A stretch of 64,000 nucleotides of DNA. Source: Diprion similis. Its lineage: Eukaryota; Arthropoda; Insecta; Hymenoptera; Diprionidae. Below the pieces are notes generated by a model that worked only from the letters and a program-made list of their open reading frames with translations, had not been told where the DNA came from and searched no databases. Shown in pieces: positions 13,008 through 35,600 of the stretch (its first letter is position 1; each line of letters starts with the position of its first letter). Location of the stretch: positions 627,501 through 691,500 of the forward strand of contig NC_060106.1 in assembly GCF_021155765.1 (NCBI RefSeq), given 5' to 3'. A program made the position numbers and the translations under genes.

Positions 13008-13319
13008 GAACCTTTTATGTGTGTGAAGTTGGCCCAGCACTTTTTGAAAATTGTAATTTTAAATATTGTGCCAAGTTGTGCTAAACGTGTGCAAACTTGT
13101 GCCGTTTACGCGCCTTTCTTAACTTCAACGGTTTTCGAAAAAATTGCAAAAATCGAAAATGTGATAACCCCCTCACTTTTGGAAAATCGGCAAAATAAAA
13201 ATTGTGCTAGATTGTGCTCGATTTGTGCTACCTTGTGCCGTATTCGGTTTTTTCAAAAATCTGTACTTGGCGGTAAAAAAAAAATGAAAAAAAAATTGAA
13301 AAAAAATTAACAAGTTGGG

Positions 13320-13780
13320 ATGAGTTGTGCTAGGTGAGTCCGTGAACTTTTCCCACTCACAAAAATCCCTTCGACCTACCCTTGCACCGGTGAAGATGAA
13401 TTTTTTTTCCGGCTGACTTTCAAATTTCCGAAATTTTCAAAATTTCGAAAATCCGCGACTTGTGCTGAGTTGTGCTAGGCGAGTACGTCAACTTTTCCCT
13501 CTCACTAAAATCCCTCCGACCTACCCTTGCACCAGTGAAGATGAATTTTTATTCCGGCTGACTTTCAAATTTCCAAAATTTTCGAAATTTAGAAAATCCT
13601 CGAATTGTGCTGAGTTGTGCTAGGCAAGTACGTGAAGTTTTTCCTCTCACAAAAATAGCTTTGACCTACCCTTGTACTCTTAAGAATGAATTTTTATTCC
13701 GGCTGACTAGTAAACATTCATCCAAAAAAAGAAGTTGTCTGATGTACGAATGTAAGGGTCCTGATGAAAAGCCTTTCAGA
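13320..13780 (+). repeat. Left tandem array (about 144-bp unit, three copies) of the foldback element
   Basis: Each unit contains 'gagttgtgctagg', 'cgacctacccttg' and 'tgactttcaaatttcc'. Units begin near 13320, 13462 and 13608. The third copy is truncated and diverges after 'ttccggctgact'. Confidence 0.8.
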
Positions 13781-14354
13781 ATACCGTATAAACTACCAAT
13801 TTTGAGCATGTTCATTATTATGAACAATACGCAAGAGACATAGTAGTAGATTATATTGCTGTGAAAAATGTTTTTATAACCGTATTCAGGGTGAGCTCCC
13901 TCTGAAATAAAGAAATGAAAATTGGAATGAGTTTACAGAGTTTCGGTGTGAGGCCACTTTTGCAAATTTTTTTTTCAAATGCACCAGTTGATATTTTCGC
14001 TGGTCAAGGCTGTCAGTAATCAAGTTTCCAAAATCTACTGGCTGTCAACATTTGTGTTTGTCTATCACGAAGTTTTTGTTTTTCCTAAACAATTTAAAAT
14101 CTGGCACTTTGGTTGTTTCGGCAAACTGCCCTTTGAATTACGTACACGTTTGATATTTTCACTTTTCAGAAAAAACATTATAGAAGTCATTCCAGAAAGG
14201 AATAAAATTTATCAGAAAACGAGTGAAAAGTTTTTATTTAGAGTTTATATTAGAGTTGAACATCAGAATTCGTTTTTCTCGTCTATTTCGAACAAATATT
14301 CGGAGTTATTCGAGTCTTGTGCGAGTTTTTAGAAGAACGGGCTATGGCACAAGT

Positions 14355-14950
14355 TGGCGCAAGCTCGGAACAACTTGGAGAAAACGAATAACTTTGAAAA
14401 TTTCGAAAACTCGATTGTCACCTTGGAGAAAAACTCATTTTTACTAGTGCAAGGGTGGCTCAGAGCTATTTTTGTGAGTGGAAAAAGTTCACATACTCGC
14501 CTAGCACAACTCAGCACAATTTGCGGATTTTCTAAATTTCGAAAATTTTGGAAATTTGAAAGTCAGCTGGAAGAAAAATTCATCTTCACTAGTGCGAGGG
14601 TAGGTCGAAGCTATTTTTGTGAGAGGAAAAACTTCACGTACTCGCCTAGCACAACTCAGCACAATTCGCGGATTTTCTAAATTTCGAAAATTTTGGAAAT
14701 TTGAAAGTCAGCTGGAAGAAAAATTCATCTTTACTAGTGCAAGGGTAGGTCGGAGGGATTTTAGTGAGAGGGAAAAGTTCACGTACTCGCCTAGCACAAC
14801 TTAACACAATTTGCGGATTTTCGAAATTTAGAAAATTTCGGAAATTTGAAAGTCAGCCGGAAAAAAAATTCATCTTCACTGGTGCAAGAGTAGGTCGAAG
14901 GGATTTTTGTGAGTGGGAAAAGTTCACGGACTCACCTAGCACAACTCATC
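14355..14950 (-). repeat. Right tandem array (about 144-bp unit, four copies) of the foldback element
   Basis: These are inverse copies of the left-array unit, with the junction 'actcgcctagcacaactcag' recurring near 14492, 14637, 14781 and (variant) 14926. There is one more unit than in the left arm, so the arms are unequal in copy number. Confidence 0.8.
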
Positions 14951-15439
14951 CCAACGCGTTAATTTTTTTTAAATTTTTTTTGTCATTTTTTTTTTACCGC
15001 CAAGTACAGATTTTTGAAAAAAACCGAATACGGCACAAGGTAGCACAAATCGAGCACAATCTAGCACAATTTTTATTTTGCCGATTTTCCAAAAGTGCTG
15101 GGCTTATCACATTTTCGATTTTTGCAATTTTTTCGAAAACCGTTGAAGTTAAGAAAGGCGCGTAAACGGCACAAGTTTGCACACGTTTAGCACAACTTGG
15201 CACAATATTTAAAATTACAATTTTCAAAAAGTGCTGGGCCAACTTCACACACATGAACCTTTTTCAAATTTAAAACGTAACCAAAGAATTGTTTCATTTT
15301 ACTCAACACCTACCTACAGTGCTTGAGAATTTCTTTTTGATGATTATAACGTTAAGTATCAAATTGCTTTAACTGACGAGTTCCACCCCTCCTAGAAAAA
15401 GTCACGTACAGCTCCTCGTATTAGGTTTATTTTTGATGG

Positions 15440-18100: not shown

Positions 18101-18104
18101 ATAT

Positions 18105-18377
18105 TGAAACGTTGGGGTGTTTCGCAAGGTATTAGAGTTCGTAAGTCTAATGGCTAGAAATCAAAGGCGACACAAACGCGAGAAAATGTTGAGGAAAAGG
18201 TTTTTAATGAGAAATGTGCGTGTGCTTCAATTAAAGTACGGAACAAGACTGCGTTTTACAATAATATCTGTTCACACAGCAACCTTATTCTTTTTATAAC
18301 ATCTGAGGGTTCCGAGATGTTGGCTACTAGATCATTACAAAAGGGGGGTAGAGCGGGTAATTTCACCCTTCGTAACA
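18105..18377 (-). repeat. 3' LTR of the dNK-carrying gypsy element
   Basis: 273 bp, reading TGTTACG... to ...CGTTTCA on the minus strand. It aligns end to end with 32034-32306 with about 32 substitutions. Preceded (minus sense) by a polypurine tract and followed by the ATAT duplication. Confidence 0.92.
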
Positions 18378-18402
18378 CTATCCCCCTCCCCCCCCCCCCC
18401 TC
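18378..18402 (-). promoter_or_regulatory. Polypurine tract of the gypsy element
   Basis: Immediately upstream of the 3' LTR on the minus strand lies an almost pure purine run (G-rich: GGA, a long G run, then AGGGGGATAG). That is the expected primer site for plus-strand DNA synthesis. On the given strand it appears as a C run. Confidence 0.8.
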
Positions 18403-18639
18403 CGAAGGAAAGAGTCGTCCCGACTCGGAAAACTCGAAATAATAGCAAAAGGTGATCTAATAGCCGACGCTCTAAGGTGAGTCGGAGCTACGGCTCTAAA
18501 AATTTGAAAACTTCCTTCTCAACTATCTGGCATTTGCCTACAGTCCCAAGGTAAACCATAGAAAGCCTTGAGCAGATAGCCGAGCAAAAGTCCCAAAAAT
18601 TCAGATTTTCACATTATTCTGTAATATGTGTTATAAAGT

Positions 18640-18925
18640 TGGTGTAAAGTGTATAAGTGTTATGAAATCCTCTTCATGAAAGAATCCGGAGATGCCAGGA
18701 TACCTCAGGCTATGCAGGATGGACCCGAGCGGAGGAAGTCCAAAACAGGAAAAGCCAAGGAAGGTTCCAGGAACGTCTGACATCTTTCGTAATGGAGGAA
18801 GGGATGGTCGGGAGCCGCTTCCGAGATTTCTCTGGAAACTGCGCACCCTAAATTGGGAGGACAGACGTGAGCCGTGGCCAAATAGTCGTGCTTCGTTTGA
18901 CGAATCTGAGAAAGTGAATATTTAA
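18640..18925 (+). other. Possible short coding segment, opposite strand to the gypsy element
   Basis: A plus-strand frame at 18692-18925 encodes 77 residues rich in R, P, E and K ('PRFLWKLRTLNWEDRREPWP'); an alternative frame from 18676 has a lysine/arginine-rich stretch. No family is recognised and no splice or polyadenylation signals were resolved. It shares strand and location with the spliced gene at 19308-19780, so it may be a second accessory frame or chance. Confidence 0.25.
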
Positions 18926-19155
18926 TCTGATTCAAATAAGTATTCGCATAATAATAGGTAAAAGGAACGGCCTTATCTGATCGAAATCCAGAAGAAGGCT
19001 GCATCCGCCAACCATCAGTCATCCTCAGGAATGGGAAAAGGGATGACGGGAAAAGGTTATGTCAGGAGACCTGTAAAAGCTCATGAAAACTGACATAAAG
19101 GTTGATAACACATGAAAACGGCAGATCGCTTGCTGACCCGAAAAATAATCGTGGC

Positions 19156-19187
19156 TATATTAAAGCGAAGCCTAGTCCTCTCAACGC
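19156..19187 (+). promoter_or_regulatory. Candidate core promoter of the antisense gene
   Basis: TATATTAAA at 19156-19164 is followed, about 27 bases after its start, by TCAACG (19181-19186), resembling an arthropod initiator. This places transcription start about 125 bases before the ATG at 19308. Confidence 0.45.
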
Positions 19188-19307
19188 TCGACTTGCGAAG
19201 AAAAGCTTCTAGAAAGAAACAAAAACTATAGACCAACTGAAGAAAACAAATCCACAACATAACAGTGTTAATACAACAGCCATTACTATCACCACTAGAA
19301 CCTAGAG

Positions 19308-19780
19308 ATGCAGACCGACAGACACACCCTTTTAAACACCGGGGTGCTGGTGGCCAGGATGAACCTAACCGGCAACCTAATAACCACTTCGGACGAAGCC
19401 ACTCAGATGTTGGAAGCAGCCTGGAACAACCTCAGATGCGGCATGTTCCATGGAAACTTCTTGGCAGGGGAAGCCGGCTTTTGGTTTGACTGGTGTTCGG
19501 CCCTGTAAAGAAATTTTTCTCTCTCTGGTGTTCTCTCAACTAAGTCAATGTAGAACAACTCATTAATACACACTTTTGTTTTAGCCACAGTTCTGTGACC
19601 GTCTTGAGAGGACTCACTCTCCACTTGACGGTCAGGGATGAAGGGCCCCCCTGCCAGAGCTGTCACATGGATCTCCTTTTCAGGGATCTATCGACGGTTG
19701 GCTGTGCCAACTGTCGTGAAGTGAAGGAGGCAATGAAAAACATCCTCACCCTCCACCTACGATTTCCCGGCTTAATTTAA
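19308..19780 (+). CDS. Spliced antisense gene inside the gypsy element; small CxxC/CxxC protein
   Basis: Two plus-strand exons, 19308-19504 and 19585-19780, flank an 80-bp intron with donor GTAAAG and acceptor TTTTGTTTTAG. Splicing removes the stop that otherwise follows codon 66 and keeps frame, giving a 130-residue protein ending at TAA 19778-19780. The second exon has two C-x2-C pairs ('CQSCHMDLLF' and 'CANC'), a plausible zinc-binding site. The first half has 'MLEAAWNNLRCGMFHGNF'. Third codon positions are GC-rich compared with the AT-rich surroundings. A TATA-like box, intron and AATAAA (19837) are all on this strand, opposite to gag-pol. A minus frame of 87 codons overlaps it, but nothing supports that as a gene. 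Function unknown; no homologue recognised. Confidence 0.6.
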
Positions 19781-19836
19781 AGTGTTTATATAAAAATTTT
19801 CGTTTCTGTTTCGTTTAAATATAAAAAAGGTTATAT

Positions 19837-19842
19837 AATAAA
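19837..19842 (+). terminator. Polyadenylation signal of the antisense gene
   Basis: AATAAA occurs 57 bases after the stop codon of the spliced frame and is followed by GT-rich 'gtgtggttg'. Position and strand fit the spliced antisense gene. Confidence 0.5.
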
Positions 19843-19982
19843 CAAAGTGTGGTTGAAACTCGTTCAATCTATGTTGCGTTCCGTGATTTAATTTGGTGGA
19901 TTTAGATTTGTAAACGCTTTACTTATTGTTAGATAAGAGCGTTGGTTCCAGAAAGCAAAGAATTATGGAAATTTTTATAAAC

Positions 19983-20284
19983 TTAATCAGCGGAGGCTTC
20001 GGCGTCTATGATCATAACGGGGGCAGGTAAGGAAGAAAATTTCCCTCTAATCTGCCATTTGTCATGAACCTCAGAAATAGATTTTAGAAACTCTAAGCTA
20101 ATCCCTGATTCTTCCTCACGCGAACGCGAACAAACCCGGGCGAAAGAGGTTCCGAGAGAAACTCGCAAATAAACTATCAAATCCACCGCAAGTTCAAGAG
20201 TTCGAATAAGAAGAGCAGAACTTTCTCGGAGCAAACGAGACTCGAAATCATGGGGATTTCCTAACCTTGGACGAGTTTCGATAA
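19983..20284 (-). pseudogene. dNK: Deoxynucleoside kinase, C-terminal half
   Basis: The minus strand encodes 'LAVDLIVYLRVS', then a lid-like arginine-rich stretch 'CSRSREEESGISLEFLKSI', then 'EVHDKWQI' and 'VMIIDAEA', ending at a TGA at 19983. This is the ordered C-terminal half of insect-type deoxynucleoside kinases: the DLIIYL strand, the R/E-rich LID, the helix ending in HDxW-like sequence, and a final LxxDA strand. It continues the N-terminal half at 23894-24150; the two parts are split by the hAT transposon at 20285-23893. Removing that element and one TTATC copy joins the frames. The upper part, from about 20284 to 20234, is also coding-like. Confidence 0.85.
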
Positions 20285-23200
20285 CAGGGTGTCTAGCGTG
20301 AATACAATATCAAATTCCCTGACATTTCCCGGTTTTCCAGACGGAAAATAGTGACTTTTCCAGGTCTCATTTCAACCTCATTCATCTAACGCACGCAATT
20401 TTGATTGCAAATTCAGGATGATCAAAGTCAAATGTTGTCATCTCAAATTAAAATACTCAATTTTTTCTTTCAATTTAATTCGGCTTGAACTCGATTGGCT
20501 GACCTAATAATAAACATTTCGACATAAGACATTTTTTTTCTCAACTATAAAAATCGTTTGGGTTTGCTATTATTTCTCAAAATAATGGTAACATCGATTG
20601 GATAATATGAAGTCTTTTTATTTTGCACTTGTTTAGGTTTCATAAATTTTCCAAACATAAACCTTTAACATCAATTAACCAAGTCTTAAACCTATTTTAT
20701 GTACGGATTTGTCTTACGTGCACAAGTGGTACATACCGACTATTAGTATTTCCACTGTACATATCCAAATAAAAACTTTGACCTAAATCTAATGAACTTT
20801 TCAACAGGAACTTGAACTTTATATAATTTTATATAATATTTATCCTTCATAGCATAAAAACTAAAGTAACATCACAGTTATCAAATCTCTGTTCCTTTCA
20901 AAAAATAGCATCTCTAGGGATACTCCAAAACTTTTAATTGGTCATCAATTATGGCAGTTTCTTTTACTGCATTATCGAGCAGCTTTTTTTTTCGCTTCCA
21001 GTTCTTTTTTAAGAGGAGCTGCTCGTCTTCGCTCTTTTTTCAGCTCTTCTTCTTTTTTATTCTCTCGCTGTTCTTCTGCTAAAGCTTCTTTATACCACGC
21101 ATGAGCGTTACGGGCAGAGTGAATCAATTCTTTAGGAATTTCGAAATTTTCGAGACCTTTTGTTGCACTTATTCCATCGTATATAATTCTTTGTGCAATC
21201 AAAGAATTTTGTTTTTGGTTTTCGACTAGACATTCTTTATTTATTGAAAATCCTCTCTCAACTGCCGCATTGCCGTGTGAAAGGGTCATGACAAGCTCTA
21301 CAAAACGTAACAGATTACTATAATCAGACATTCCACAGTTTTTAATAAAATTTACCCAGAAATGATCTAAACGAGGTTTAGACAGAGTAAAATTCTCAAC
21401 TTCTACTTTGAATGCAGGATTGTCTCGAATTTTTTCATACTCTCGATCGATTTTATCTGCTACCGTACCAGAAATTATTCCATGTTCTACGTAAGTTCGT
21501 AAAGCAGATTGCAAGCGCTTATCAGCTACTTCATTTTGAATTGCTATCGCTGGATCCATACAAGAAATAGCTTTTACTAAAGGATATTTAATCGGCGATC
21601 GGTCCATTGTTTTGTTTACAAAAGTCTTAATACATTTTCGGCATTGTTCTCGAAATTGTAGTATTTGAAGATCAGAGACTTGCTTTCGTTGTCGCAGTGC
21701 AGCTTCGGTCGCATATCCAAGATGAATATACTTAGCATGTAAAACATGATCTTTGTTATCGAGATCAATTTTGTCCAGCTGCATCTCCTTCAAGATGTCT
21801 GGCTTGACAAACCTTGCCACGACAGTCCTCATGAGTCCTACAATTCTATCATAAAGGAAAGGAGCAAGTGGATTATCAGACTGAAAGTGAGTAAGAAAAG
21901 ATTCTACTTCACTTGCAAGAGTCCGAAAAAATGCCAGTTTGGCAGACAATAATTCATCAGTTAATGCGTTTGAGACTATTTGATAACTGGCGCATTTGGG
22001 ATTTTTTTTTTCTTTGACAACTTTATCTTTATATTTGCAAAGATTGGGTAAGATAGCACTTGCTTTATCGACAACTGGTACATTTTCTAACCAGCGAATT
22101 GCACAAAATTTCAACGGAAATTCTTTGGAGCCTGATGCATTCGTGTACTCAGCTTTACGTGCTGGGACATTTTTGAATAAGTTATAAATGGCTCGCAAAA
22201 ATTCAATGATTTCCCATTCTGTTACCTTAATTCCAGCTTTAAAAGCACAGTGCAAAGTGTGCAACCCACAACTACCTAAATCGAGCAACTTATTGTTGTT
22301 GGGGTCCTCAGATAAATACTCCCGCAAATTTCTTAGGAACTTAAAATTTACGTTGGGTCCATCCATCTATATTTGTATCGTCTTTTTCAGCATTTGTGTA
22401 GGCACGTTACTCTTAAAAGCTTCTAATAAATCGTTGGCTGTAGTGTATCCGAGAAATGCGGAGGTGAAATACCTTGTAGATACTTCACTTTTTGTTTTAT
22501 TCCAAAATCGGACTACGATGTCCATTTGTTGCTGCTGGCACACCTTATTAAGGCTTTCGTCAAATGCGATGACAAGAGTGTCAGAGTTTTCAATTAATGC
22601 TGCAAGCTGGCCCTTAAAATATCTCGATATACCATACGTGATTGTATATGCAGCTTTTGCTTTGCTTAGTTGCATTCCCTTTGCTATTGCACTATCTGGA
22701 AATATAATCTTCATTAGGGCCGTGCTATTCCCTACATCTCGTAAAGATTCGTGATGCATCACAGCGTCTAAGCAGCACATGATCTCGGCTCTTGTAATTT
22801 TATCTCGTGCAATGAAGTTTTGTATCCCTTTCAGCTTTGGCATAGCATTCTCTTCAAATGACGAAAGCATACCACAGTGGACGCTGCAACTTTTGGAACA
22901 CACACTTGAAGTATTCAAATCTACGGGGATTACTGTAGCACTCTTATTCAAATTCGTTGTGATTTCAGCACAAGGAATTCTGTTTGTGGAGCTCGTGGAA
23001 CTTGTTATACTCGTCGTAGTAGCTGTCACAGTGTCTACGGCTGTGTTCGTTAACTCACAATCAGACAGCTTGGTATTATGATGCAGTAACAGCGAAAAGC
23101 TCGAGTTCTTGTAATTCATAATCTCGCGATGCTTCTTTCCATTCATGTGACTATTAAACGCAGTCTTGCCCATATTACTTAGTGAGAATTTGGCCTTGCA

Positions 23201-23893
23201 CAAGGAACAGAAAGCCGAAAACTTATCTGTTTAGACTTCTCGTACCCATGAAAATGCATCATCATCACACCATTTTCTCGAAAAAGCAGTTTTCCTCATT
23301 TTCGAAGCAGCCATGATGAATTTTGAGAAAAAAAACCTAAATAAAGTAAAAAAAAATTAATTATTGTATATGAACGAGTTTGAGAAACATAACCTTATAA
23401 TCTTTCTGTAAAAAAGAGTGAAAGAAAGTTGTTCTTTCTGTAAAGTTCATAAAGTAACTTGAATACATAAAACACATACCGTAACTGAGCAATTATTGGT
23501 ATTTTTTATGTCGCTGAAGTACGAATTCACTTAATTCATTACACTTTAAATGTTACCCACGACATTTCGGCTCGAGACTGATCACGAAAATACCGGCTTT
23601 GTTGTCATGCCAATGAGCAGCCATAACACTAGCTCCCGTGTACCTAGCTGTCAGATAGCGCCACTGGCGGCAAGCACGAGCGGCAAAATTCAAACCTTTA
23701 CTTCGGCGTAATTATTACGTAGAGCGTAATTTCCGCTATTATCACAATTGTGTAGCGGTAAAAATGGGATGAAAAAATGAAAAAATTCCAGACACGTGCT
23801 CGAATTCCCTGACTTTTCCCGGTTTTTCCAGACACATTCAAATTCCCTGACAATTCTCGGTTTTCCAGATTTCCCTGACAGCTAGACACCCTG
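20285..23893 (-). mobile_element. hAT-type DNA transposon, 3.6 kb, inserted in the dNK gene
   Basis: Terminal inverted repeats CAGGGTGTCTAGC occur at 20285-20297 and, inverted, at 23881-23893. Subterminal regions on both sides carry copies of 'attccctgac' and 'ggttttccaga'. The element is flanked by GATAA on both sides (20280-20284, 23894-23898). A 5-bp duplication is unusual for hAT elements, which normally make 8 bp, but a 5-bp lineage (hAT5 in Repbase) is known to me. The single transposase gene is on the minus strand. Confidence 0.85.
20972..23314 (-). pseudogene. hAT-family transposase with two in-frame stops
   Basis: One continuous minus-strand frame of 781 codons runs from ATG at 23314 to the TAA/TGA end at 20972, interrupted only by a TAA near 23233 and a TAG at 22367-22369. 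Near the N-terminus lies a zinc finger, C-S-L-C ... H-x4-KKH (BED/C2H2-like). The centre has 'LVIAFDESLNK' and 'LGSCGLHTLH', and 'RWLENVPVV' follows. The C-terminus has the hAT dimerisation signature 'LSHGNAAVERGFS'. The tail is a lysine/glutamate-rich helix. The rest of the frame is clean over 2.3 kb, so it died recently or the stops are allelic. The coding strand is the same as that of the dNK gene it interrupts. Confidence 0.85.
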
Positions 23894-24150
23894 GATAAAA
23901 CAATCGCCACTAAAAAATCGATTGCTCCATAATTTTGACAGGCAAAGAGGTTACCTGTAGGTGTCTTTGGCACATAACCATTTGAACGTGGTGTTGAAAC
24001 TGATAACTGTATCGATCAGGCACTTAATACATCAAATCTAAGAGTTTAATCCCGTCAAAACCTGGGGATCCGTCAAAAATCTCCTGGTGAAGGTGGATTT
24101 CCTACATCCGATGTTGCCCTCGATGATGATGGTCAGAGGGCGTTCCTTCC
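23894..24150 (-). pseudogene. dNK: Deoxynucleoside kinase, N-terminal half with altered P-loop
   Basis: On the minus strand 'RPLTIIIEGNIGC' begins a P-loop (24147 downward) that reads GNIGCRKS where the family has GNIGxGKS/T, so a key glycine is arginine. After 'DPQVLT' about ten residues (the EPV...W nucleoside-binding region in the family) are missing and the frame shifts. Then 'LLDLMY', a stop, 'QFQHHVQMVM' and 'KIMEQSIF' follow, aligning residue by residue with the family pattern LLELMY, FQSYV and KIMERSIF. The ERS arginine is replaced by Q. The segment follows the integrase C-terminus directly in a different frame, overlapping its last codons. With at least two frameshifts, a stop and P-loop damage, this copy cannot be active. 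Confidence 0.88.
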
Positions 24151-24389
24151 GTAACTTGACGCCGAAGAGGAGGTCTCTCCGCCAGTCGATGACAGACTGG
24201 AAGGTGGTTATGGTGATCGTAATTTTCACAGCTAAACTCTGACAGATTGAACCTCGAAAGAAGTTCCAGGTCCTCTTCAAATGGAGCAAGGCGGTCGAGG
24301 TGCACGACCCTTGCCTTACAATGAGGGCCTTTCCGGATCCTATAAACAGCATCGTTTATCCGGTTGACCACCTGGTAAGGGCCTTCCAA
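24102..24389 (-). pseudogene. Integrase C-terminal domain of the gypsy element
   Basis: The frame encodes 'GPYQVVNRINDAVYRIRKG' followed by 'ARVVHLDRLAPF', the typical SH3-like C-terminal end of Ty3/gypsy integrases (GPY/F module, then VHxDRLAPF). The downstream residues of this frame (with many H, P, R) overlap the start of the dNK frame and probably are not protein any more or mark the original boundary between pol and dNK. Confidence 0.75.
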
Positions 24390-24726
24390 GATTCGTTGTG
24401 ATTTTGGGCATCGTCCTTTCTGCCTCCTTGGTTGAAATAACTAGACGGAATCTCCGGGATTGAACTTTAAATCCCTGGCTCGCATATCGTAGCAAGCTTT
24501 AAGCTATCTGAAGCTATAGAAATTCTATTTCTTGCAAAGTTGTGAATTTCTTCCAGACGTCGCTGTAAGTCGGAGGCATAATCTGTCTGAGGTGGTGATT
24601 GCACAAAACAGGGCCTTTCTCTAAATCCGCGGGAAGTCGGAGATTCTTCCCCGTAAGCATACAAGCGGGCGTCTGTTTCGTCGTCTCGTAAATCGCAGAT
24701 CTATAAGACAGGAGGAAAAAGGGGAT
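24390..24726 (-). pseudogene. Decayed linker between integrase core and C-terminal domain
   Basis: A minus frame at 24467-24664 includes 'PPQTDYASDLQRRLEEIHNF', which matches the spacing and style of the helical linker (…LRLRLEEVHEFARE-like) between the integrase core and the GPY/F module of gypsy elements. Stops and frame changes interrupt it on both sides. Confidence 0.55.
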
Positions 24727-25266
24727 CTAGGTGTCCCAATCTCGCTGGTTCTGTTCTACGAAGGGCGACAAATATTGGAGCAAAGTCCTATTCAGACGTT
24801 CTATCATGCCGTTAGACTGAAGATGGAGGGGGGTAGTACGAGTTTTTCTAACCCCTAAAATTTGAGTAACTTCCTTCATTAAGCTTGACTCAAAATTTCG
24901 GCCCCAATCGGTGTAAAGTTCTAGTGGAACTCCGAGCCTGCAGATGAATTCTCTAACGAACGCCTGAGCTACAGTGGAGGCTTCTTGATCACTTATTGGG
25001 ACCACTTCTGGCCACTTGGTAAAGTAATCGGCAATAACCAGAGCGTATTTATCCCCTTCGTAGATGGTAGGAAGGGGACTGAGGATGTCCACCGCCACCC
25101 TCTCGAAAGGAGCGTCCACGTTGTATATTTGAAGAGAGCTCTGTCCTCTAGCTTGGGGCCCTTTCTTCGCCGTGCAGATTTGACATTTTCTGCACCATTC
25201 TTCGACGTCTGTCCGGCAGCGCGGCCAAAAGTAACGGTCGCGTATCCTGCCGAGTCACTTCTTTGA
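24727..25266 (-). pseudogene. Integrase zinc-binding and catalytic core of the gypsy element
   Basis: The zinc-binding part is in the frame 25358-24993 ('CRQTDVEEW'-type region, frame-broken). The core frame 25119-24727 has the three catalytic residues in context: 'FERVAVDILSPLP' (D), 'LYTDWGRNFES' (D) and 'GMIERLNRTL' (E). 'YALVIADYFTKWPEVVP' lies between. The D-D-35-E spacing looks right. Internal frame changes between domains show that pol is dead. Confidence 0.85.
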
Positions 25267-26176
25267 GGCGAAATGTCCATCTGCAGGAGAATCGTGATTG
25301 AGTGCAAGAACCTCTGGGACTCTAATCCTGGGAACCAGAAGTTGCCACTTGATTTCACTCAAGTCTGCGGATTCCCATTTTTGGTATAAAATTCCATCTA
25401 CTAAAGCGATGGAGTCCTACTGAGCCTAATAAACTTTTAGGTCCGGTCCAGCTGAGGATATTTCCTGCCATACCAGACGAGTCTCTGCTTCTTTCCAGGA
25501 CTTTACTCGGGCTGGAGTCGTATCCTCTTGCTGAGATATTCTCTAGTCCTCCAGGTCTCCTTCGAGTGTAATGCCTCGAATTAAACAAGCAGGGTTTCGG
25601 TATTTCTCCAGCCTTCCAAACTGTTTGCAATCTGGTATGTCTTCACAGGGTCTTCTTAAAAGGGCGTCCAGCTCGATGTTTAATGTCGAAACCATACTGA
25701 CCGAGTCTCTCTAACCAACGAGCTACCTGGCCTTCGGGCGACTTGAACGAAAGCAACCATTTTAATGAAGCGTGATCTGTTCTAACGAAAAATCGCCTAG
25801 CGTACAAGTAATGGTGGAAATGGACTACTGTTTTAATGACGGCTAAAGGTTCTCGACGGGTAACGCAGTAGTTCCTCTCAGCCTTGCTAAGAACCCGGCT
25901 TAAATAACAAATTACCCTTTCTAGACTTCCCTGAACTTGTGACAGAAACCCGCCTATCCCTGAAAGTGAAACGTCAGTATCTAAAATAGAAGGAAGATTG
26001 GCTTCAGGGTAAGCTAATGTAGGTGAAGAGGTTAGACAAGTTTTCAGCTTCTTGAAGGCCTCCTCGCACTCGAGAGTCCAATGGAAGGGAGTATTTAGTT
26101 CCGTCAGATGATGAAGAGGTTTCGCTATGGAGGCGAATCCTTTTACAAATCTTCTATAATAGGTGCAGAGTCCCAA
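25267..26176 (-). pseudogene. RNase H domain and tether of the gypsy element
   Basis: The frame 26176-25643 begins in the RT thumb ('FVKGFASIAKPLHHLTE'), then has the RNase H start 'LDTDVSLSGIGGFLSQ', where the D-T-D stands for the usual DASxxGxGAVLSQ, 'ICYLSRVLSKAERNY', 'FVRTDHASLKWLL' and 'WLERLGQYGFDIKHRAGRP'. Order and spacing are canonical for Ty3/gypsy. The part between 25643 and 25358 is frame-broken and carries no clear motif. Confidence 0.85.
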
Positions 26177-27066
26177 ATGGCTCTGTACCTGTTCTTTGTT
26201 GACAGGCGTTGGCCAGGAAAAACTTTTTCGATTTATGACGGGTCAGTCTTCACTCTGTCAGCTGAGCCGATGTGTCCAAGGAAGCTGACTTCTCGCTGGA
26301 ACGAATGGCACTTTTTCGGACTCATCTTCAGGCCTGCGTGCTTCAGCCTGGCGAAAACTTCTTCAAGATTATGCATTTCTTCTGTGAAGTCCCTGTCGAA
26401 GACGATTATGTCGTCTAGATAGACGAGGCAAATTTCCCCGATGAGTCCATGGAGGATAGCGTCCATTATCCGTTCGAAGGTAGCCGGGGCGTTACTCAAG
26501 CCAGATGGCATTACCTTGAACTGCCATAGTCCTCCTAAACCAGTGACAAAAGCTGTCTTTTCTTTGTCGGAAGAGTCTATCTCGACCTGCCAGTACCCAC
26601 TTTGTAGGTCTATGGTGCTAAACCAATTGGCGCCAGCAATCAGATTGAGAGTTTCGTTAATCCTCGGTCAAGGATACGAGTCTTTCTTCGTAATATCATT
26701 CAGCTTTTGGTAGTCAATACAAAATCGTTTCGATTCATCTTTCTTGTTGACTAGGACAATCGGAGAAGCCCAGGGGCTGGATGAAGGTTCAATAACGTCG
26801 TTCGCCAGCATGTCTTCCACCAGCTTCTTCACCTCCTCCCAGGCGTTGAGAGCAAGTCTCCGAGGAGCCTGCTTTATCGGGGGATTCTGTCCAACGACAA
26901 TCCTGTGTTTCACGGAAGTACAACGGCCTTCATCACCACTGGTTTTGGTGAACGAATCTGAAAACTCTAACAAAAGAGATCTAAACGATTCTACCTGGGC
27001 CGAGTCTAACGCAGTCGATGACCTTTCGACAAGATTCTGTAAATGTGACGGAAACTGATCTGGCAA
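26177..27066 (-). pseudogene. Reverse transcriptase domain of the gypsy element
   Basis: The frame 27066-26668 holds the start of RT: 'NDVIEPSSSPWASPIVLVNK', then 'FCIDYQKLNDITKKDSYP' with the first catalytic D. The frame 26511-26233 has 'MPSGLSNAPATFERIMD', then the active-site 'YLDDIIVF'. The two are joined by frame changes at about 26660 and 26520, and a third frame carries 'LDLQSGYWQVE'-type palm sequence on the minus strand near 26600. Confidence 0.88.
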
Positions 27067-27108
27067 TTCGTGTTGAGAAAGTGGTAATTCTTGAATTCTA
27101 GGAGGAGA

Positions 27109-27440
27109 TCAATAAATTCCATTCCCATTTGTACACGGAGCTATTTCACGATTGTTTGAAGCTGAAGAATTTCTCTTAGTCGAGATAACACAGTTATGAG
27201 CTGTAAGAAAGTCTATTCCCAAAATTCCTTCATCCTCGATATCTGCTATGAAAACCTTATGTGGAGAGTCGATACAACCGAACAGGTTAATTTGTACAAC
27301 AACCTGACTCAAAACCGGGGTTGTCTCTCCAGTGGCTGTTCGCAGGGACAAAGAGGGAACAGTCTGGTCATCGGATTTAAAGATATCCGATCTAACGTCG
27401 GTCACTTCCGCACCGGCATCTATTACCCAGAGGCAGTCGA
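27109..27440 (-). pseudogene. Aspartic protease of the gypsy element, split by a solo LTR
   Basis: The catalytic motif reads 'LWVIDAGAEVT' (D-A-G-A where D-T/S-G-A is usual), followed by 'VFIADIEDEGILGIDFLTAH' with the ILG-D flap/dimer motif. The solo LTR inserted at 27440/30442 just before the active site. Across the TCGA duplication the frame continues upstream into 'GLYARGTVNGV', which is the expected first strand of the protease. Part of a broken pol frame. Confidence 0.8.
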
Positions 27441-30400
27441 TGTCACATCCTCGATGCCCTCTGCTCCCACTCATTAGTTTTACTTTGATTACCTTTCAGT
27501 TTACGAATAAATTCATTTATATTTTCTTTTTGAGTCTCCGTATGCATTGTATGCATACGGCTCTCTTTATCACCTTTTTACGGGCTCTGGGAAATAACCA
27601 CCCTCAGCTGACAATAATCTTACTGATTAAATAATGTTACGGGATAATCCTTACCTAAACAGACTAGTATATACAATATCGTGGCCTTTAATATGGGTAA
27701 AAAAAAAATTGATCCCGCCGCCCTCCAAAGTGGTTCCCAATAATGAAAAAAAAATCCACGAAAAGTCCGAGCGATGTCCGTTGAGAGGAAGACGTGCCTG
27801 TAAGCATGAAACTTCCGTAATTTTAGTAAAAGTCCTAATTTTTTCAGAATTGGTGTCGTTATTGATTTTTTTCAATTATGATGATGTAAAACTTTTAATC
27901 GGATCGATATAAGTAAAATTATTGTAATATGCAATCGTTTGCGATATTTTTGTGGTTTAAATAAATAAATTCGTACTAAACGAACTAGTATCGATTTCTT
28001 ATGTGTACATTTTTTAAATATTATGTTTGTTCCGACCAATTCGATGACTTGTGGGAATGAATGATTTCTTTGTTTTTAATGAAACGTACAAGTTCGCCAA
28101 GTTTGAAATCCTGCTAAGTTCAAAATGTCCTTATGCATTTTTGCGAAAGTAATTTTTAAATATGTGGGGACTGCGTCTCCCACTCTCCCTCATTTTATTT
28201 CAGTTTCGCGATATTATTAATTAGTCATAATGTTACATTTATATTAAAATAAGTAAAGTAATAACGTTCCAAGTACGGACACGCCGAGCTAGTTTATGAC
28301 TCTAGCCAGGTCAGTCCGTACTGCGCTGTCCGGCAGCTAAAGCCGGCACACATCTGGCAAGACAATACCTCCACTCGGGACCTTCTAATCAACCAATAAA
28401 TGCCTTTTTACAATAGCAAATTCAGGATTTCCCCAGTGTGGGTTTTTCCTGTTCTTTATGATATGCAGTTGGTCAGCAGATGTGGATGGTAACCAGCCTG
28501 GACACCGCGGCCGCGATTGGTTCGCCTATAGTTAACGTTTACCTGATCCTTCCCAACTCTCATTACTTTACCGTTTCATTTGTCCTCCAATCCCAAAATT
28601 CGTTACATTTCCCACCAATCAGAAAAGCGCAAACCAAGCATCTTTACACACTTCTGTCTCCTACCCTCGAACCAAAAATTCCCACTCCTACTACAACATA
28701 CAACCGGAATATTTCGAAAACCGGACAGTGAGTCAGATCTCCCCGTACCGAGCCGATCGTCTCCGGTTGAACTTAGATCTCAAATAAAGTTAGGTTAGAA
28801 GTCTGTACTACCTCTTTATTCTCCTGTGCAACGCTCGATGCCCCATCGCCTAAGACGCCAAAAATACATTCTTTATTCACAGCACTGGATGTCTGATCTC
28901 AGTGAAATAATAATATATTTGTATCTCAACACGCACGGAATATTTCTAACGAGATAAAAAAAAAACAATTCTGGCCAATCCGAAAGTTCGATGTGAATGG
29001 TTCATCGTGAATTTATATTTTTTGGACTTGATAGATTTTTCTGACAAGATGCAAATTTAAGGTTTGACTTTGATGTGATTAAAACCGTTCGATAGCAGCT
29101 AAATCGAACTATTGTTCCTGAAGAATGAGATGGCAGAACTGAACGCTCATCAAATCCAGTATAAGGACCTTATTATTTGATCTGTATATTGAATACCAGT
29201 ATACGATGGCTTCGAAAAGTTGAAAAAAATTGACACATGAACGACATTGAAAAAATAAAAATTCCTCCAATCACAAAGAAAAATTGATCTATAAATTCAA
29301 GTTCATGCTTACAGGCACGTCTTCCTCTCAACGGACATCGCTCGGACTTTTCGTGGATTTTTTTTTCATTATTTGTGAACCGCTTCGGAGGGCGGCGGGA
29401 TCAATTAATTTTTTTTGACCCATATTAAGGACCACCCTAATATACAAACTCTCTAAGAGTAACCAAATGACCGGAAATCGCTTCTCGATATTTCTAGGTA
29501 TGCAGAATCTGGCAAGCACATGCAACGGTTTAAAATCCATATAGCCATTTTTGAAGTGTCTGTTTGAACAGGGTCGTCCCCAACATACAATAGGATATTT
29601 TTACCAATGTACCAAAACAAGCACGGCAATTCCCACCCGCACTCATGGAAGAGGCGGGATTAGTCAAGATAGTTTTGCATGCTACACCATATCCAAAGGG
29701 CGGGGGTAGTTAAGAGCGAATGGAAAACTCAAAATATTATCAAGACTTCCTTATTGGGCAGCTCTCTCAAAGATGCTGGGAACCAATCAGGAAGTAGTTT
29801 ACACCAGTACGTGAACCTTTAAAAAGGGTCGCCTCACGTTTTTCGCTCTCAGTTTTTTCAAAACGCTCATTGCTCATTGCTCATATGCAATTCTCATTCG
29901 CAAATCTCATTGCTCAGTTTTCTAAACTCTCTTTCGTTACAAAGTTGTCATTGAAATTACACTTAGTCGCCTATTAACAGTCTTCAACAAAAATCATTCT
30001 CTCAGTTTTGAATAGGTCAATCAGGTCAGAAAATCTGTTCAGAAAAGCTGTCAGAAATCCTAAAAGGTCTTTTATTTAATTCAATAAATAATAAAAATTA
30101 TTGTAAGCATTCTTTCTTAAACCCTAAATTGAATAAACAAATATTCATGTGTTAAACTTACATCGCGAGTTAAACAATTAATTACCTTTAACGCATAATA
30201 TAAGCTAAACAATCAGTAACTTTAACCAATCTCACCACCGGCTGAACACGCAGAGCCGCCCACACAGCCCAAAACAACAATCAACAACTAAAGGTAAGTG
30301 ACCATTTTATTATCAAAGTCGATTCAACCAAGAGAGAAAACGACATCAAAATTCAAATAATTCACCATCCGGGAGAACTAATCCGAGCCAAGCGTTATAT

Positions 30401-30441
30401 TTTTGGAGTGGTTTAGTCATCAGCCAACCCAGACCATAATA
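27441..30441 (+). mobile_element. Solo LTR inserted in the gypsy protease, itself interrupted
   Basis: The ends TGTCACATCC... and ...CCATAATA are flanked by TCGA on both sides (27437-27440, 30442-30445). The sequence aligns to another solo LTR at 54166-55414 over both outer parts, for example 'ccgtatgcattgtatgcata' and 'aggtaagtgaccattttatt'. A 1,763-bp insertion at 27677-29439 explains the extra length, leaving about 1.23 kb of LTR. The terminal A instead of CA at its 3' end is a point change. Confidence 0.88.
27677..29439. mobile_element. Non-autonomous hAT-like element with 8-bp TSD, nested in the solo LTR
   Basis: Ends of about 130 bp are inverted copies; the better-preserved right end reads TAGGGTGGTCCTTAATATGG inward. 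ATATACAA flanks both sides (27669-27676, 29440-29447), while the uninterrupted LTR at 54166 has a single copy at the matching point. An 8-bp duplication suits the hAT superfamily. The interior has no transposase. A GC-richer block at about 28260-28860 has a different texture, with 'aataaagttagg', and may be another solo LTR or captured sequence, though I could not find its borders. Confidence 0.8.
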
Positions 30442-32031
30442 TCGACACCATTCACGGTACCACGCGCATAAAGACCAGACTGTCTTAGACCTCTAATTAA
30501 AAATTGCTCATTAACAGGGCTCTCGCCGTCGACAATCTGCGATGATTTTCGCCCTGACAAATCATCCGTACCTAGTTTTTTGTACCAGTTATTCCGGTTG
30601 ACGTATATGGCTAAGGATCGTTTTCACTCTTATTTGTATCTCTATTACGCCAACTCTGGGTGTTGGAATTCGAGCTTTGGAAAAGGGTCTCTCTACAAAC
30701 TTTGTTAAGGGTGAAACAATGATTTAAATCGTGTCCCATTCTTTTGCGAAACGCGCAGGACAAAGTGGGCCTATCGCTACTATTTTTTTGAACTGTTTCT
30801 CGCCTGTCATTCTGTTTCCACGGGGGGGGGGGCACGATTATTTTTATTTTTAGAGTACCTCTTTTGATTATTTGATTTAGTTCTCGAAGAAGTAGTCTTT
30901 CCCAGGTATCTTTCGATACTTCTACTTGACGGAGTTTTCCCGAACCGAAATATTGTTTTCGCAAGGTTTCTACTTCTAGAGCCTTGGCTGAAGCTTCCCG
31001 AAGGGAAAACAACCCTGGAGAGCCGACAGCCGTTTCAATTTTGGGGTCATTCATCGCGTTCACGGAAGCCTGCACAGCCAAGAAATTGCGAGACTCTTCG
31101 TGATTCGGTAACGCTATACGTGACAGTCGCTCTATGTCCTGTCCAAGTGAGGCAAGGTCTTCGTCACGTCCCTGTTTCCTCGTTTGCAATTGGGTGATGC
31201 ATAGTTTAGTTGGGTGGTCATTTTCGTATCTCAATTCAAGTGCGGAGCTGAGCTTTTCATAATTCGAGATTTCTTCTCCAGACAAGGTTGTGAGCACATT
31301 TAAAGCTGGAGTTCGGAGGCCAGAGGCAAGGCTGGCAGCCTTCATGGCTGAATTCCATTTATTATGACTGGCAATTGTCAGGAATTGTATTTCATATTCC
31401 GCCCATTTTCCCGTTGAAAATTGGCGGTTTTAAAGAAAACAACACTTTTTCGAGAGGTTCAGAGGGAACCTCCAGATTTCTTTGGTTATTCAAATGGTAA
31501 TGAGAAATTTGAGCCTGGGGTTCGGGAAAGACGACCTCCTGCATTATTTTAGGCTTATGAATCGGAGAGTCTCCCATCACTCTAGTAAAAGGAACAGACC
31601 TTAGGATAACAGCGGAAATTGAGTTTTGAGTGAATCTAGGAGTGGGAACGAGGGAATCTCGTGGGGAAGCAGCAGGCTCCCTCACTGCCTGTAGAGCCGT
31701 CACCGTGATCTGGAATAGCTCGTGCTACTTGTACTCCAATCATTCCTGGGCCTTACGGTCAAACCAGCGCGATCGTTCTTGGGTCTCAACGATCTAACCG
31801 GCGTTGTTCTCGTTGTTCCTGCAACAAACTCAACAGCTGCTGCTGTTGTTAAGCAGCCGCTTCTTGTTGATCATGTAAGATTTTTAGCAGGTCTGCGGCG
31901 GAGACAGTGGTTGCCTGAGATGTTACGGCGGGGGTCTCCGCAGTCACGGGACCGGCGGCCTCTGGAGCTGTAAGAACTCCTAGACGCGCTGATTCTAAGC
32001 CGTCAAACTCGAAGATCCCACTTCTGGCACC
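30442..32031 (-). pseudogene. gag region of the gypsy element
   Basis: The minus strand after the PBS gives an N-terminal glutamine-rich coil ('DLLKILHDQQEAAA', stop, 'QQQQLLSLLQEQREQRR'), then 'PPIFNGKMG' introducing the capsid region, and the frame 31345-30611 with 'GLRTPALNVLTTLSGEEISN', 'LELRYEND', 'QLQTRKQGRDEDLASLGQDI'. A partial zinc-knuckle-like C...GH....C occurs in 'CAFRKRMGHDLNHC', with the first C-x2-C damaged. This is the style of insect Ty3/gypsy Gag. At least four stops or frameshifts are present. Past 30611 the frame runs to the protease start before the solo LTR. Confidence 0.8.
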
Positions 32032-32032
32032 A
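32015..32032 (-). promoter_or_regulatory. Primer-binding site of the gypsy element
   Basis: On the minus strand, one base after the end of the 5' LTR (...TTTCA), lies TGGTGCCAGAAGTGGGA. The TGG start matches the complement of a tRNA CCA end. The priming tRNA cannot be named without comparison to host tRNAs. Confidence 0.7.
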
Positions 32033-32033
32033 C

Positions 32034-32306
32034 TGAAACGTTGGGGTATTTCGTGAGGTATAAGAGTTCGTGAGTCCAATGGCTAAAAATCAAAGGCGTC
32101 ACAAACGCGAGAGAATCTTGAGGAGAAGGTTTTTGATGAAAAATATGCGTGTGCTTCAGTCAAAGTCCAAAACAAGACTGCGTTTTACAATAATACCTGT
32201 TTACACAGCAATTTTATTCTTTTAATAACATCTGAGGGTTCCCAGATGCTGGCTACTGGATCATTATAAAAGGGGGGTAGAGCGGGTGATTTCACTTTTT
32301 GTAACA
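32034..32306 (-). repeat. 5' LTR of the dNK-carrying gypsy element
   Basis: Pairs with 18105-18377 over its full 273 bp. TSD ATAT follows at 32307-32310. The LTR is short compared with the 1.1-1.2-kb solo LTRs elsewhere in the window. Confidence 0.92.
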
Positions 32307-32310
32307 ATAT

Positions 32311-32650
32311 CTTCAGTCAGTCGGAAAATAGACTTTCGAAACTTGTTATAAATTTCTGGTCGTCAGAGAAAGTCCTCCACGATCAGGAGAAAAATTGAAG
32401 AGAAAAAAAAAATATGAACCTTTTGGGATCGATTTTTCCCATAGCTACAAAGCGCACTGAACTTTGGCCTTAACTCGTATTCCTTCTTTGTATAAACTGA
32501 GCTTGTCTGTCCTTCCTTGACTTCTATTTTACTGACCGATATGTGGTACCAGACATGGACAGAAATCACGCTTATGAAACACAGTAATTATCTGCAAAGC
32601 TACGGACTTCCTGCTATGGGTGGTAGTAGTGATACAATGGGCATTGTGTG
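32311..32650. other. Flank between the gypsy element and the palindrome
   Basis: Unique-looking AT-rich sequence with no gene recognised. The last about 30 bp before 32651 retain imperfect similarity (about 80%) to the inverse of the sequence just outside the other palindrome arm at 41445-41475. Confidence 0.5.
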
Positions 32651-35600
32651 CACAGATTCCTGTTACCGGCACTTACCGACATCTTCCCTCGACTCAAACC
32701 CTTCTCCGCGATGACGTCACAGTCCGCTGTACCGACCGAAGATCAAAATGACGCTACCTATTGATCGACCGAAGGTTCAACCTTATCGCCAGTGTTATCA
32801 GCCGAAGGTCAAAGATATTAAATTGATACTTGCCTCCATATCCGTGAGTACATGCATAAATTATCCAAGCAGTGGCAGTCGATCAACACGGGCGTAAAGT
32901 GAGTGCGAGTACAACTTCCAATACACGGTCGTAGGAAAAATCCTTGTTGTAGTTGTAATGGTTAGCACACGTACACAATAGGAGAAGAACAGAGGCTATA
33001 ACCCAGTTGATTGATACGTTCACCTCGCGATTAGAAAATATTTCGATATTAGAGAATCAACTGCCCATCGGAATGGGATAGAAATTTGACATGCGGAAAC
33101 TTTTCATAAAATACCTTCGTAAACTGCCCCTTCTTAGTCGTTATGTCATAAACCAAGAAGATTCGCAGAAAGTAGGAGCTGGCTCGATTGTAAGTCGGCA
33201 TGTAGAAGGTAAGAAAGTCATCAAAGATCACTTTTTTAGTGTGAAAATAACCATTATGAGCATGTTTTTTCGGGTAAGAGATGTATTTTGGTGATATTCA
33301 CTTACCCCAAATCCAAGCGCAAAGTCAACATTCTGTTAGAGTAACCATTGATAGCTAGAACAATGGGTGGTGTAAAAATCGAGGCGACGAGGAAAAAACC
33401 AAGTATTCGGATTCCATGTTTTGGCCAACGGTAAAGTGGATGCATGACAATTGGAGATATCCAAAAGAGTTGCATATCAGCAGCCAAGTACCAGATGTGG
33501 GGTAAACACTGCAATTTTCGACATCTCGTGAGCATGAAGTAATCAGATTTACCAGGATAATAAATATCGAACTGACGGCTAATACTATTTCTGATTTGTA
33601 CCAACAACAAAGAAACTCCATGGAAATACCCAAAAACATTCAAGATACTCTAGGAAATCCACGATTTCATCAGTATCTCATAGACGCTTTATAGATGCGG
33701 GTGTTGTAAAGTTTATCAACGTTCTTACGTTTCATGAAACCTCTGAACCGAACAAAATCAACGGTACGTTTTGATTTAGCAAAGGCGTGGACCAATACTT
33801 ACAATTTTTTGCGAATTCACCAAATTCTGAAGGTACAATGAATTGACCCACCAATTTTCTTGTCAACTTTCTATGCCTCTAACGAACAAAGTATTCCAGA
33901 GGGGGCCATTTCCAAAGCTATCTGCAAACAACGAAACGGACAACAGAACGATGCCTAAGGATGGCATGAGTCTACAAGTAAACTACAAATACTGACACAA
34001 GTGAAAAAGAGTTATGTCTCATCTGTCTCTTCTGATTATACGCAGAATGATACATTACACCCCGAATGGATTGTGGAACAAAAGCGTGCATTGCACATCC
34101 TTAGCGTAAGCAGAGGTCGATCATTTTGACTCAAAGTTTTCACAATACACCTGAGATAACGATAAAGGTAGAGTAGTGGCCAATTGATTTGTCTTCCCGA
34201 TTTCATGGCTTTAAAACGCAGGTAAGCCTTGAGAAATCCGCTTATTACAAAGAAGGTCTCGACAGCAAATGGAGCGGGCTCAATGTACAAAGATGCCCAT
34301 GAATTTAACCACTGAGGATCAATTGTGACAATATTATTGTCTCACTTGGAGTGACGGTAGATATGAATAATACTATCCTCTAGTGTTAAAAATCATTTCT
34401 GCTGAAATGTAAATCACATACTCCGAAGAGTATTCAACATTATAGCAGTGTCCTGTATTCGGCTGAAAGCATTTTTGTCGTATTACTTCGATGACAAAGC
34501 AGCCGTCGAATGTTGGAGCAAGTATGATCACTACTGCATATTAGGTGTACCGTTCAACTTACTTCGTTAAATTCAAGTCCATTCACAACTGGCCTGATAA
34601 ACAGCAGAATACAACCATGAGCCAGTATAACCCAGCACATTCTCAGAACTCTAGATACCTTGGATCGATTGCAGCGTGTCCGGTTCTACTTTTGTGCTTA
34701 ACACATCGAGTGCGTTGGTGTACAGCGAGAATTTCGCCAATGTATTCATTGACGTCGATGCCTCTGTCGGCTTGTATCTTCTCGCTAAGTCGCGAATGGT
34801 GCAACCGATCATGAATACGGCAACGGCCGAGAACAAAATTCTAAAAGCAATTCACTGGTTTCTTTAATGGGTTAAACGAGATTGTTCTCTGAAACCATAT
34901 GTAATACCAACTTACAGTATAGAAAGTTCTCCAGCACTCAAGTCAACAGATTCCACTTGCGCACAGGACGCTTCACTAGCTGCTAATTCTAGGTCACTGA
35001 AGCCTTGTGTTTTCGCGATGGTGGCATTGATGATTTGCTCGACACGGGTCTCATTGCACGACAATGGAACACAAAGTGATGACAAAATGCAAAGTACTTC
35101 CACACTATTGAGCACAGCTGACGTAGGAGACATCGAACCCAGAGAAACCATGCAGTGCTTACCCCGGATACTGACGTGGTTATATTTCTCATTGACGCAC
35201 TCGTCGTTCGTTCAGACGTCTCTAAAGTTTCCTTTCATAAGCCCTGATGGAAAACTCGACGATGCATCCAACACTATCATAGAGAACAGAATCACTACTA
35301 ACTGCATAATTACACAGGGGTTTATACATTTTGTATGAGGCGAACTTTAGCATATGGAGTCACTCCTTTACTTCGGAGATAACAGAGCATTCTTCATGCT
35401 TGAAATTTGAAAAAGTTGTTTCTTGAAATGCCCCTGAAAATTATTAGTTTGCTTCTTACTTTGAAAAGCCCATTCTTGACCAGACTCGATGGCTTCTATC
35501 AATCCTTCGACTTCATCCGCACAGGAAGATTCAGTGGTATGGCGAATCGATTTCAAACCTTCTATCGATGGCCCTCGTGAAGATCTCATAATCCGTTTGA

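Follow-up and report, generated by a model that had tools for sequence, protein, structure and literature searches.

How a nucleotide-salvage gene comes to lie inside a retrotransposon, and how it could be expressed there, is the question raised by a 64,000-nucleotide stretch of the Diprion similis genome (contig NC_060106.1, positions 627,501 to 691,500), hereafter the window. Its minus strand carries, at 18105–32306, an old and broken Ty3/gypsy element in which a deoxynucleoside kinase (dNK) gene of Pfam family PF01712 sits between the integrase and the 3' long terminal repeat (LTR). From comparisons of copies across the genome, we consider it likely that an env-less Ty3/gypsy lineage captured an insect-type dNK cDNA and expresses it as a spliced Gag-Pol-dNK protein supporting cDNA synthesis.

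A dNK gene in a Ty3/gypsy family

The preliminary description of the locus had placed a dNK-type kinase directly after the integrase, on the same strand and inside the LTRs, and this was borne out. The regions for gag, protease (PR), reverse transcriptase (RT), RNase H (RH), integrase (IN) and dNK follow one another along one strand, and the two LTRs (88% identity over 278 aligned bases) have ATAT at both outer ends. The C-terminal half of the kinase (19983–20284) exceeds the curated cut-off of PF01712 (E = 6.2e-11, 42.9 bits) and matches Drosophila dNK in the PDB (E = 3e-9). The C-terminal half is recognised by Pfam, but the N-terminal half (approximately 23894–24196) is not one intact frame. 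Its P-loop block and its LLDLMY, FQHHV and KIMEQSIF blocks are in different frames, and a short deletion and two stops occur as well; Pfam gave this half alone an E-value of only 0.16, and the second block scored nothing. Tblastn with the sawfly protein P0002 (see below) recovered both frames with 68.6 and 114 bits, the latter including the integrase end, compared to a best score of 28.5 bits in 20 block-shuffled windows. By eye, the EP motif is lost and the ERS position holds a Q. As described, an insert splits the kinase, a 3.6-kb transposon by its terminal inverted repeat (TIR) and flanking TTATC, but its assignment to hAT was not confirmed, as neither of its two long frames gave a hAT domain in Pfam. 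With its dNK broken by frame changes, stops and this insertion, the old window copy cannot encode the enzyme. The parts of the element, all on the minus strand unless no strand is given, are as follows, from 5' to 3'.

32034–32306, minus: 5' LTR (TG..CA), outer flank ATAT at 32307–32310
32015–32032, minus: primer-binding site TGGTGCCAGAAGTGGGAT, found by eye, with similar sequence at the equivalent position of other copies; we take it to be of tRNA-Leu type
30614–31429, minus: broken gag remnant, a 272-residue frame matching the gag frames of other copies
27441–30441, minus: inserted LTR sequence with TCGA on both sides (by eye) and a nested repeat-ended element at about 27681–29435
27109–27440, minus: protease region; Pfam aspartyl protease match weak here (E = 0.09), E = 4e-7 in copy L009
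26233–27108, minus: reverse transcriptase (YLDD), RVT_1 E = 6.8e-29
25643–26242, minus: RNase H, RT_RNaseH_2 E = 6.8e-31
24727–25254, minus: integrase zinc-binding and core domains, Integrase_H2C2 E = 1.4e-8 and rve E = 1.1e-9
24282–24383, minus: integrase p58 C-terminal domain, PF22938 E = 6.8e-11
24197–24252, minus: intron remnant of 56 nt, donor split GAG/GTTCAA, acceptor CTTCCAG/TCT
23894–24196, minus: N-terminal half of dNK (P-loop), broken by a frame change, a deletion and stops
20285–23893, minus: transposon inside dNK, TIR CAGGGTGTCTAGC, 5-base TTATC on both sides (by eye)
22367–23230 and 20972–22366: transposase-like frames of this transposon, no Pfam transposase match
19983–20284, minus: C-terminal half of dNK (lid, DAE strand), 62.9% identical to protein P0001, stop at 19983–19985
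18378–19982, minus: 3' region without recognisable env, with a terminal G-rich polypurine tract
18105–18377, minus: 3' LTR (TG..CA), outer flank ATAT at 18101–18104

The inserted LTR sequence at 27441–30441 is homologous to window positions 54166–55412 (80–93% identity per piece), itself an LTR-like sequence with CACG on either side by eye.

Further copies were sought among proteins and in the genome. A protein search with the window's C-terminal half returned one match with E ≤ 0.001 out of 53 candidates, the 223-residue 'deoxynucleoside kinase-like' protein P0001 of Diprion similis, and a search with P0001 gave one further match, P0002, among 163 candidates. In both, the N-terminus corresponds to the C-terminal end of the element's integrase; by Pfam, PF01712 is above its cut-off in both proteins and PF22938 in P0002 only. 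A search for long annotated Pol-dNK proteins covered 1176 candidates (about 546–1736 residues) and gave none at E ≤ 0.01; they were scored with the P0001 region minus its last 14 residues. In the Diprion similis assembly (269 Mb, 60 contigs), the PF01712 profile gave 62 matches. By inspection, three are host dNK exons (L029) and one is the host protein L035, presumably ND-42/NDUFA10-like; 22 matches span profile positions 1 to 169 or beyond, and 15 of these contain no stop.

The window's integrase core was searched against the same assembly, with 150 of 700 candidates scored, so that the resulting counts of places are lower bounds. At least 44 places showed ≥59% identity, C2:980434 and C2:274325 being dropped as second pieces of the same copies. 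Among the matches listed, 40 of these 44 are followed on their own strand by a dNK match no more than 6 kb away, at a distance of exactly 632 bases in 11 of the 40; in two places besides the window the sole dNK match is more than 3 kb away, and several matches are C-terminal halves or degraded. One of the four places without a dNK match, C9:10835482, shows half a dNK when read directly (reverse strand of L017). No downstream dNK match was found in three full-length relatives with 49% integrase identity, nor, by eye on the match lists, in three partial relatives with 47–49% identity. Because 40 of 44 places carry dNK and these outside relatives carry none, we regard it as a shared trait of this element lineage, which would have been gained after the split from the 49% relatives or lost in them. 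Viral contigs and bacterial genome contigs yielded no relatives of the dNK-bearing element.

Around the strongest dNK matches, we retrieved 20 regions of 9951 bases each. All but L020 and L027 show an integrase core match upstream of dNK (18 of 20), and LTR-like terminal direct repeats with 90.7–99.65% identity bound 13, although in L020 the repeat is merely 149 bases long and the span 3.3 kb. LTR identity reaches ≥99.3% in L009, L012, L013, L014, and L015. Nine of the 12 LTR pairs tested are flanked by identical 4-mers, eight by ATAT, as in the window, and one by ATAC; in L015, L023, and L026 the flanks are not identical or an end was not located. Thus the kinase recurs between integrase and 3' LTR in other copies, and four of the 20 (L009, L012, L013, and L014) combine an open 1140-codon pol, an open dNK frame of 224–226 codons and LTRs with 99.3–99.7% identity. 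In L009, Pfam recognised PR-RT-RH-IN within the single 1140-residue frame, with no dUTPase among matches at E up to 0.01, and gave the dNK frame 141.6 bits for PF01712 against a cut-off of 27.

An env-like coding gene between dNK and the LTR was considered and found unsupported. No env was recognised there because the region showed neither codon periodicity nor a Pfam match: in the longest comparison (L009–L028) substitutions were distributed 61/65/60 by codon position, compared to 31/17/55 in the dNK of L009–L026, used as control, and no frame tested (two in L009, as well as window frames) gave a Pfam match above cut-off. Some short pieces are uneven, e.g., 18/10/9 in one piece of L022.

The ratio of nonsynonymous to synonymous divergence (dN/dS) was calculated by NG86 over up to 190 kinase codons for 11 of 18 kinase rows. 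Between subfamilies it lies at 0.11–0.26 with dS of 0.30–1.6 (L009–L011, 0.13; L009–L024, 0.16; L009–L031, 0.13), whereas the related copies L024 and L025 with damaged kinases, serving as an inner control, gave 1.06. The highest other value was 0.31 for L020–L023, a close pair with stops. Fisher tests gave p = 4e-24 for L009–L011 and p = 1.0 for L024–L025. For the integrase, values over eight copies ranged from 0 to 0.24, with 0.48 in one close pair; dS is saturated in kinase pairs with the host gene. These ratios point firmly to purifying selection on the element kinase. Among the 18 rows, the strict P-loop is present in 15, EP in 17, M[EK]RS in 17 and a loose lid pattern in all 18, and five open rows (L009, L010, L012, L013, and L014) have P-loop, EP, true ERS and lid together.

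The window also holds other repeats and transposon-like genes. Directly outside the retrotransposon, positions 32625–35854 and 38241–41470 form a 3.2-kb inverted duplication with 99.8% identity, whose sole tested frame (35371–35949) had no Pfam match. An inverted repeat at 13014–15257, with arms of about 700 bases (95% alike) and 145-base tandem units, resembles a foldback element. A 399-residue frame at 57460–58656 contains a YqaJ recombinase domain (E = 3e-14) and a SWIM match slightly below cut-off, and perhaps belongs to a DNA transposon. Furthermore, we found a DDE_Tnp_4 transposase frame (58998–59783), which we take to be Harbinger-like, and transposase frames with THAP and a TNP-like RNase H (62404–64000), presumably P-element-like.

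The intron between pol and the kinase

The pol frame of L009 stops at 6263, whereas its dNK frame is open from 6301 and has its first methionine (6502) past the P-loop. As the two frames are apart and the dNK frame has no AUG upstream of the P-loop, neither frameshifting nor internal initiation would give a whole kinase in copies of this type. Frameshifting or stop read-through was thereby ruled out as a general route for L009-type copies with their non-overlapping frames, and either one as a fixed mechanism was ruled out by the relative frame of pol and dNK, which varies among subfamilies.

The gap holds a GT...AG stretch with donor AG/GTT and acceptor CTAG or CCAG, which we measured in the window copy, in L032 and in 17 of the 20 retrieved copies (19 in all); its anchors were not found in L023, L026, and L027. 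In 18 of the 19, both splice sites are in phase 0, a complete pol codon preceding and a complete dNK codon following the intron. The exception is the window copy, whose pol frame is broken before the intron remnant and whose donor is in phase 2. Many of the 18 copies are closely related, which reduces them to about five independent observations. Intron lengths of 56, 57, 58, 64 and 65 represent every residue modulo 3, so that the frame relation of unspliced pol and dNK varies by subfamily while the spliced product would stay in frame. In 10 pairs drawn from five copies other than L024, the intron was not seen to diverge faster than the adjoining exon sequence.

Two copies, L030 and L031, are intronless. 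In L030, ACATCCTTCCAG is directly followed by CCTTTAATTGATTGG, which matches the spliced form of its intron-bearing relative L022, and pieces of gag and integrase lie upstream of the junction; in L031, from another subfamily, GGCGAG is directly followed by TTTATTGTCGATTGG. A genome-wide pattern search with up to two mismatches found the L030-type junction in L030 only (control 0), so spliced RNA of this type would seldom be reverse transcribed into new copies. In the public gene model P0002, SSQ is joined to PLINWEH at the place of the intron, the two pieces lying 59 bases apart in the genome. Since no AUG precedes the P-loop, phase-0 splice sites are conserved and intronless copies exist, splicing probably yields the kinase as a Pol-dNK fusion.

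Proposed mechanism and alternatives

We propose that an insect-type dNK cDNA inserted between the integrase and the 3' LTR of an env-less Ty3/gypsy lineage. Removal of the 56–65-base intron would delete the pol stop and fuse the integrase C-terminus in frame to the kinase, with unspliced RNA giving Gag and Gag-Pol, and spliced RNA giving Gag-Pol-dNK. Intron retention would then set the kinase dose and preserve an integrase form free of the tail. Once translated, the fusion would most likely carry the kinase into the particle along with reverse transcriptase, where an active enzyme would phosphorylate deoxynucleosides, the first salvage step, and benefit the element by aiding cDNA synthesis where dNTPs are scarce.

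An extension of this proposal, to which we give somewhat less than an even chance, holds that splicing controls the extension of Pol by the kinase: the degree of intron retention would determine what share of particles bears the enzyme, so that reverse transcription could go ahead in dNTP-poor cells or stages, and elements with half-kinases lacking the P-loop, or with gag plus a half-kinase, would parasitise proficient copies. Such derivatives exist. In one set of copies the kinase is missing between the intron and the TSLPVK block, P-loop included (reverse strands of L011 and L017). In another, L033 (C6:19092200–19096200) and L034 (C5:10408300–10412300) are 99.9% identical over 3.5 kb and consist of LTR, an open 535-codon gag, no pol, a 131-codon half-dNK frame and LTR. 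Identity between their terminal repeats is 100% (250 bases) and 99.6% (242 bases), counted without the outer end of the 5' repeat, which the compared sequence does not reach. We interpret L033/L034 as a young non-autonomous derivative. Integrase and dNK histories disagree between L022 and L011 (dS 0.07 and 1.06, respectively), which suggests recombination between subfamilies that swapped a dNK/3' module. Finally, L031 with L036 and L037 (C2:3154700–3160300) is intronless with an open 326-residue frame ending in dNK. A host-adopted kinase gene was rejected for it: ERS has lost its arginine, and the sequence on both sides resembles the element's leader and 3' region, so that we take it as an internally deleted copy, whose open frame could reflect chance or an adopted gene.

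Several observations weigh against the proposed spliced kinase and its role. A deoxynucleoside kinase performs only the first salvage step, and two further kinases are needed to reach the dNTP. The young group with gag and the C-terminal half shows that a full kinase is unnecessary for every mobile copy. Three of the 18 kinase rows have no strict P-loop, one no EP and one no M[EK]RS, and two read MKRS; a single-sequence structure model of the kinase reached a pLDDT of 35 and did not confirm the fold. Leaving out the host dNK gene and the ND-42-like protein, 27 listed dNK matches have no listed integrase within 6 kb upstream. Twenty-two of these are C-terminal halves, and half-dNK matches without a nearby integrase may belong to the L033/L034 kind; one of the others, L024, has integrase pieces when read. 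Regarding splicing, the intronless state may include chance deletion, as L026, a relative of L031, has GAG at both splice sites, and the dNK frame of L024 is open from 6214, ahead of the intron, and overlaps the end of pol, so that this copy may use a frame shift.

Among the competing explanations, the one that survives best, though we think it unlikely, holds that dNK is kept for another task, e.g., altering the host nucleotide pool, acting on nucleoside analogues, or serving as an integrase tail. It is compatible with the structure that we propose, and the half-dNK copies lacking a P-loop, which are still mobile and include the group with 99.9% identical copies, fit it. However, open full-length copies retain the catalytic motifs, and the purifying signal extends over up to 190 codons.

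It is more doubtful still that the kinase is an independent third gene, its acceptor joined to a 5' donor to give a subgenomic mRNA without pol, as for the env of Drosophila errantiviruses. The env of insect endogenous retroviruses is made in this way, according to one report (PMC12992720), and the missing AUG before the P-loop would suit this route. On the other hand, the local AG/GT donor is conserved and in phase 0 in nearly all measured copies, and L030 joins integrase exactly to dNK, with the local intron missing. The subgenomic form and the local fusion could both exist.

The origin of the kinase bears on two further explanations. Two introns interrupt the kinase in the host dNK gene, one behind NLL and one behind DLI, and because both are missing from the element kinase, it was probably captured as cDNA. 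The L009 kinase scored 160 bits (E = 5e-46) against Drosophila dNK, compared to at most 75 bits against dGK and dCK entries, which identifies it, as far as homology tells, as an insect-type dNK, old or fast-evolving. In the tree, host and Drosophila dNK were grouped 100/100, a branch of 1.13 away from the element rows. The 19 element rows were not resolved as one clade: they make a single group in 29% of bootstrap trees and need two changes on the best tree, whose root is unsure given the long outgroup. This topology would allow several independent captures from diverging host dNK genes, with the purifying signal being that of the host gene. We nevertheless rate such captures as very improbable, since dN among element kinases does not exceed 0.22, far below the 0.52–0.60 that separates them from the host gene, and the element rows that were read have a common junction and none of the host introns. 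A spliced host paralogue at this place, raised at the outset as an alternative, is contradicted by the host dNK gene being a separate, intron-bearing locus. Finally, a passenger, i.e., a host dNK retrocopy trapped once in a dying element and flanked by LTRs by chance, would fit the window copy alone, broken and with LTRs of 88% identity, and can be dismissed given the same junction on several contigs, young LTR pairs and dN/dS well under 1.

Related systems and implications

The proposed Pol-dNK element resembles Ty3/gypsy (Metaviridae) in its LTRs, gag, PR-RT-RH-IN order, Integrase_H2C2, rve and p58_C domains and 4-base flanking repeats, and differs by a dNK joined to pol by an intron and by the absence of a recognised env. 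Its kinase shares full-length similarity and the P-loop, EP, ERS and lid motifs with Drosophila dNK (PDB 1j90; PF01712); unlike that enzyme, it is encoded inside a retrotransposon, without host introns.

dUTPase, which removes dUTP, is another enzyme of nucleotide metabolism found in retroelements. According to a study on bdelloid elements, it lies between PR and RT in Juno, Vesta and TelKA, and may follow IN in vertebrate retroviruses (PMC5408684). Functionally, dUTPase in retroviruses and bdelloid elements is the closest parallel, with a nucleotide-metabolism enzyme in the pol region (PMC5408684), whereas the sawfly element has a salvage kinase after IN that would be reached by splicing. The same study describes bdelloid LTR elements with an enzymatic open reading frame 3 (ORF3), a GDSL esterase or DEDDy exonuclease (PMC5408684). 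These likewise hold a captured enzyme in the ORF3 place past pol; the sawfly element carries a different enzyme, joined to pol by an intron.

The closest parallel in expression is the spliced env of insect endogenous retroviruses, a gene downstream of pol that relies on splicing, with a donor upstream of or within gag and a subgenomic RNA (PMC12992720). In contrast, the short local intron of the sawfly element would give a Pol fusion. Among the titles and abstract beginnings covered by our literature search, which included few subscription papers or preprints, none seems to describe a dNK-bearing retroelement. We likewise met no precedent there for a short intron joining a captured gene to pol, although little of the searching was aimed at such introns.

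Retroelements with dUTPase indicate that nucleotide quality can be an element-encoded trait. If our proposal is true, a salvage kinase under purifying selection would mean that nucleotide quantity can be one too, and a limit set by dNTP supply on retrotransposition in the germ lines of animals would become testable. The short intron joining the kinase to pol would be a way to express an extra enzyme, for which the intronless copies would provide a natural comparison.

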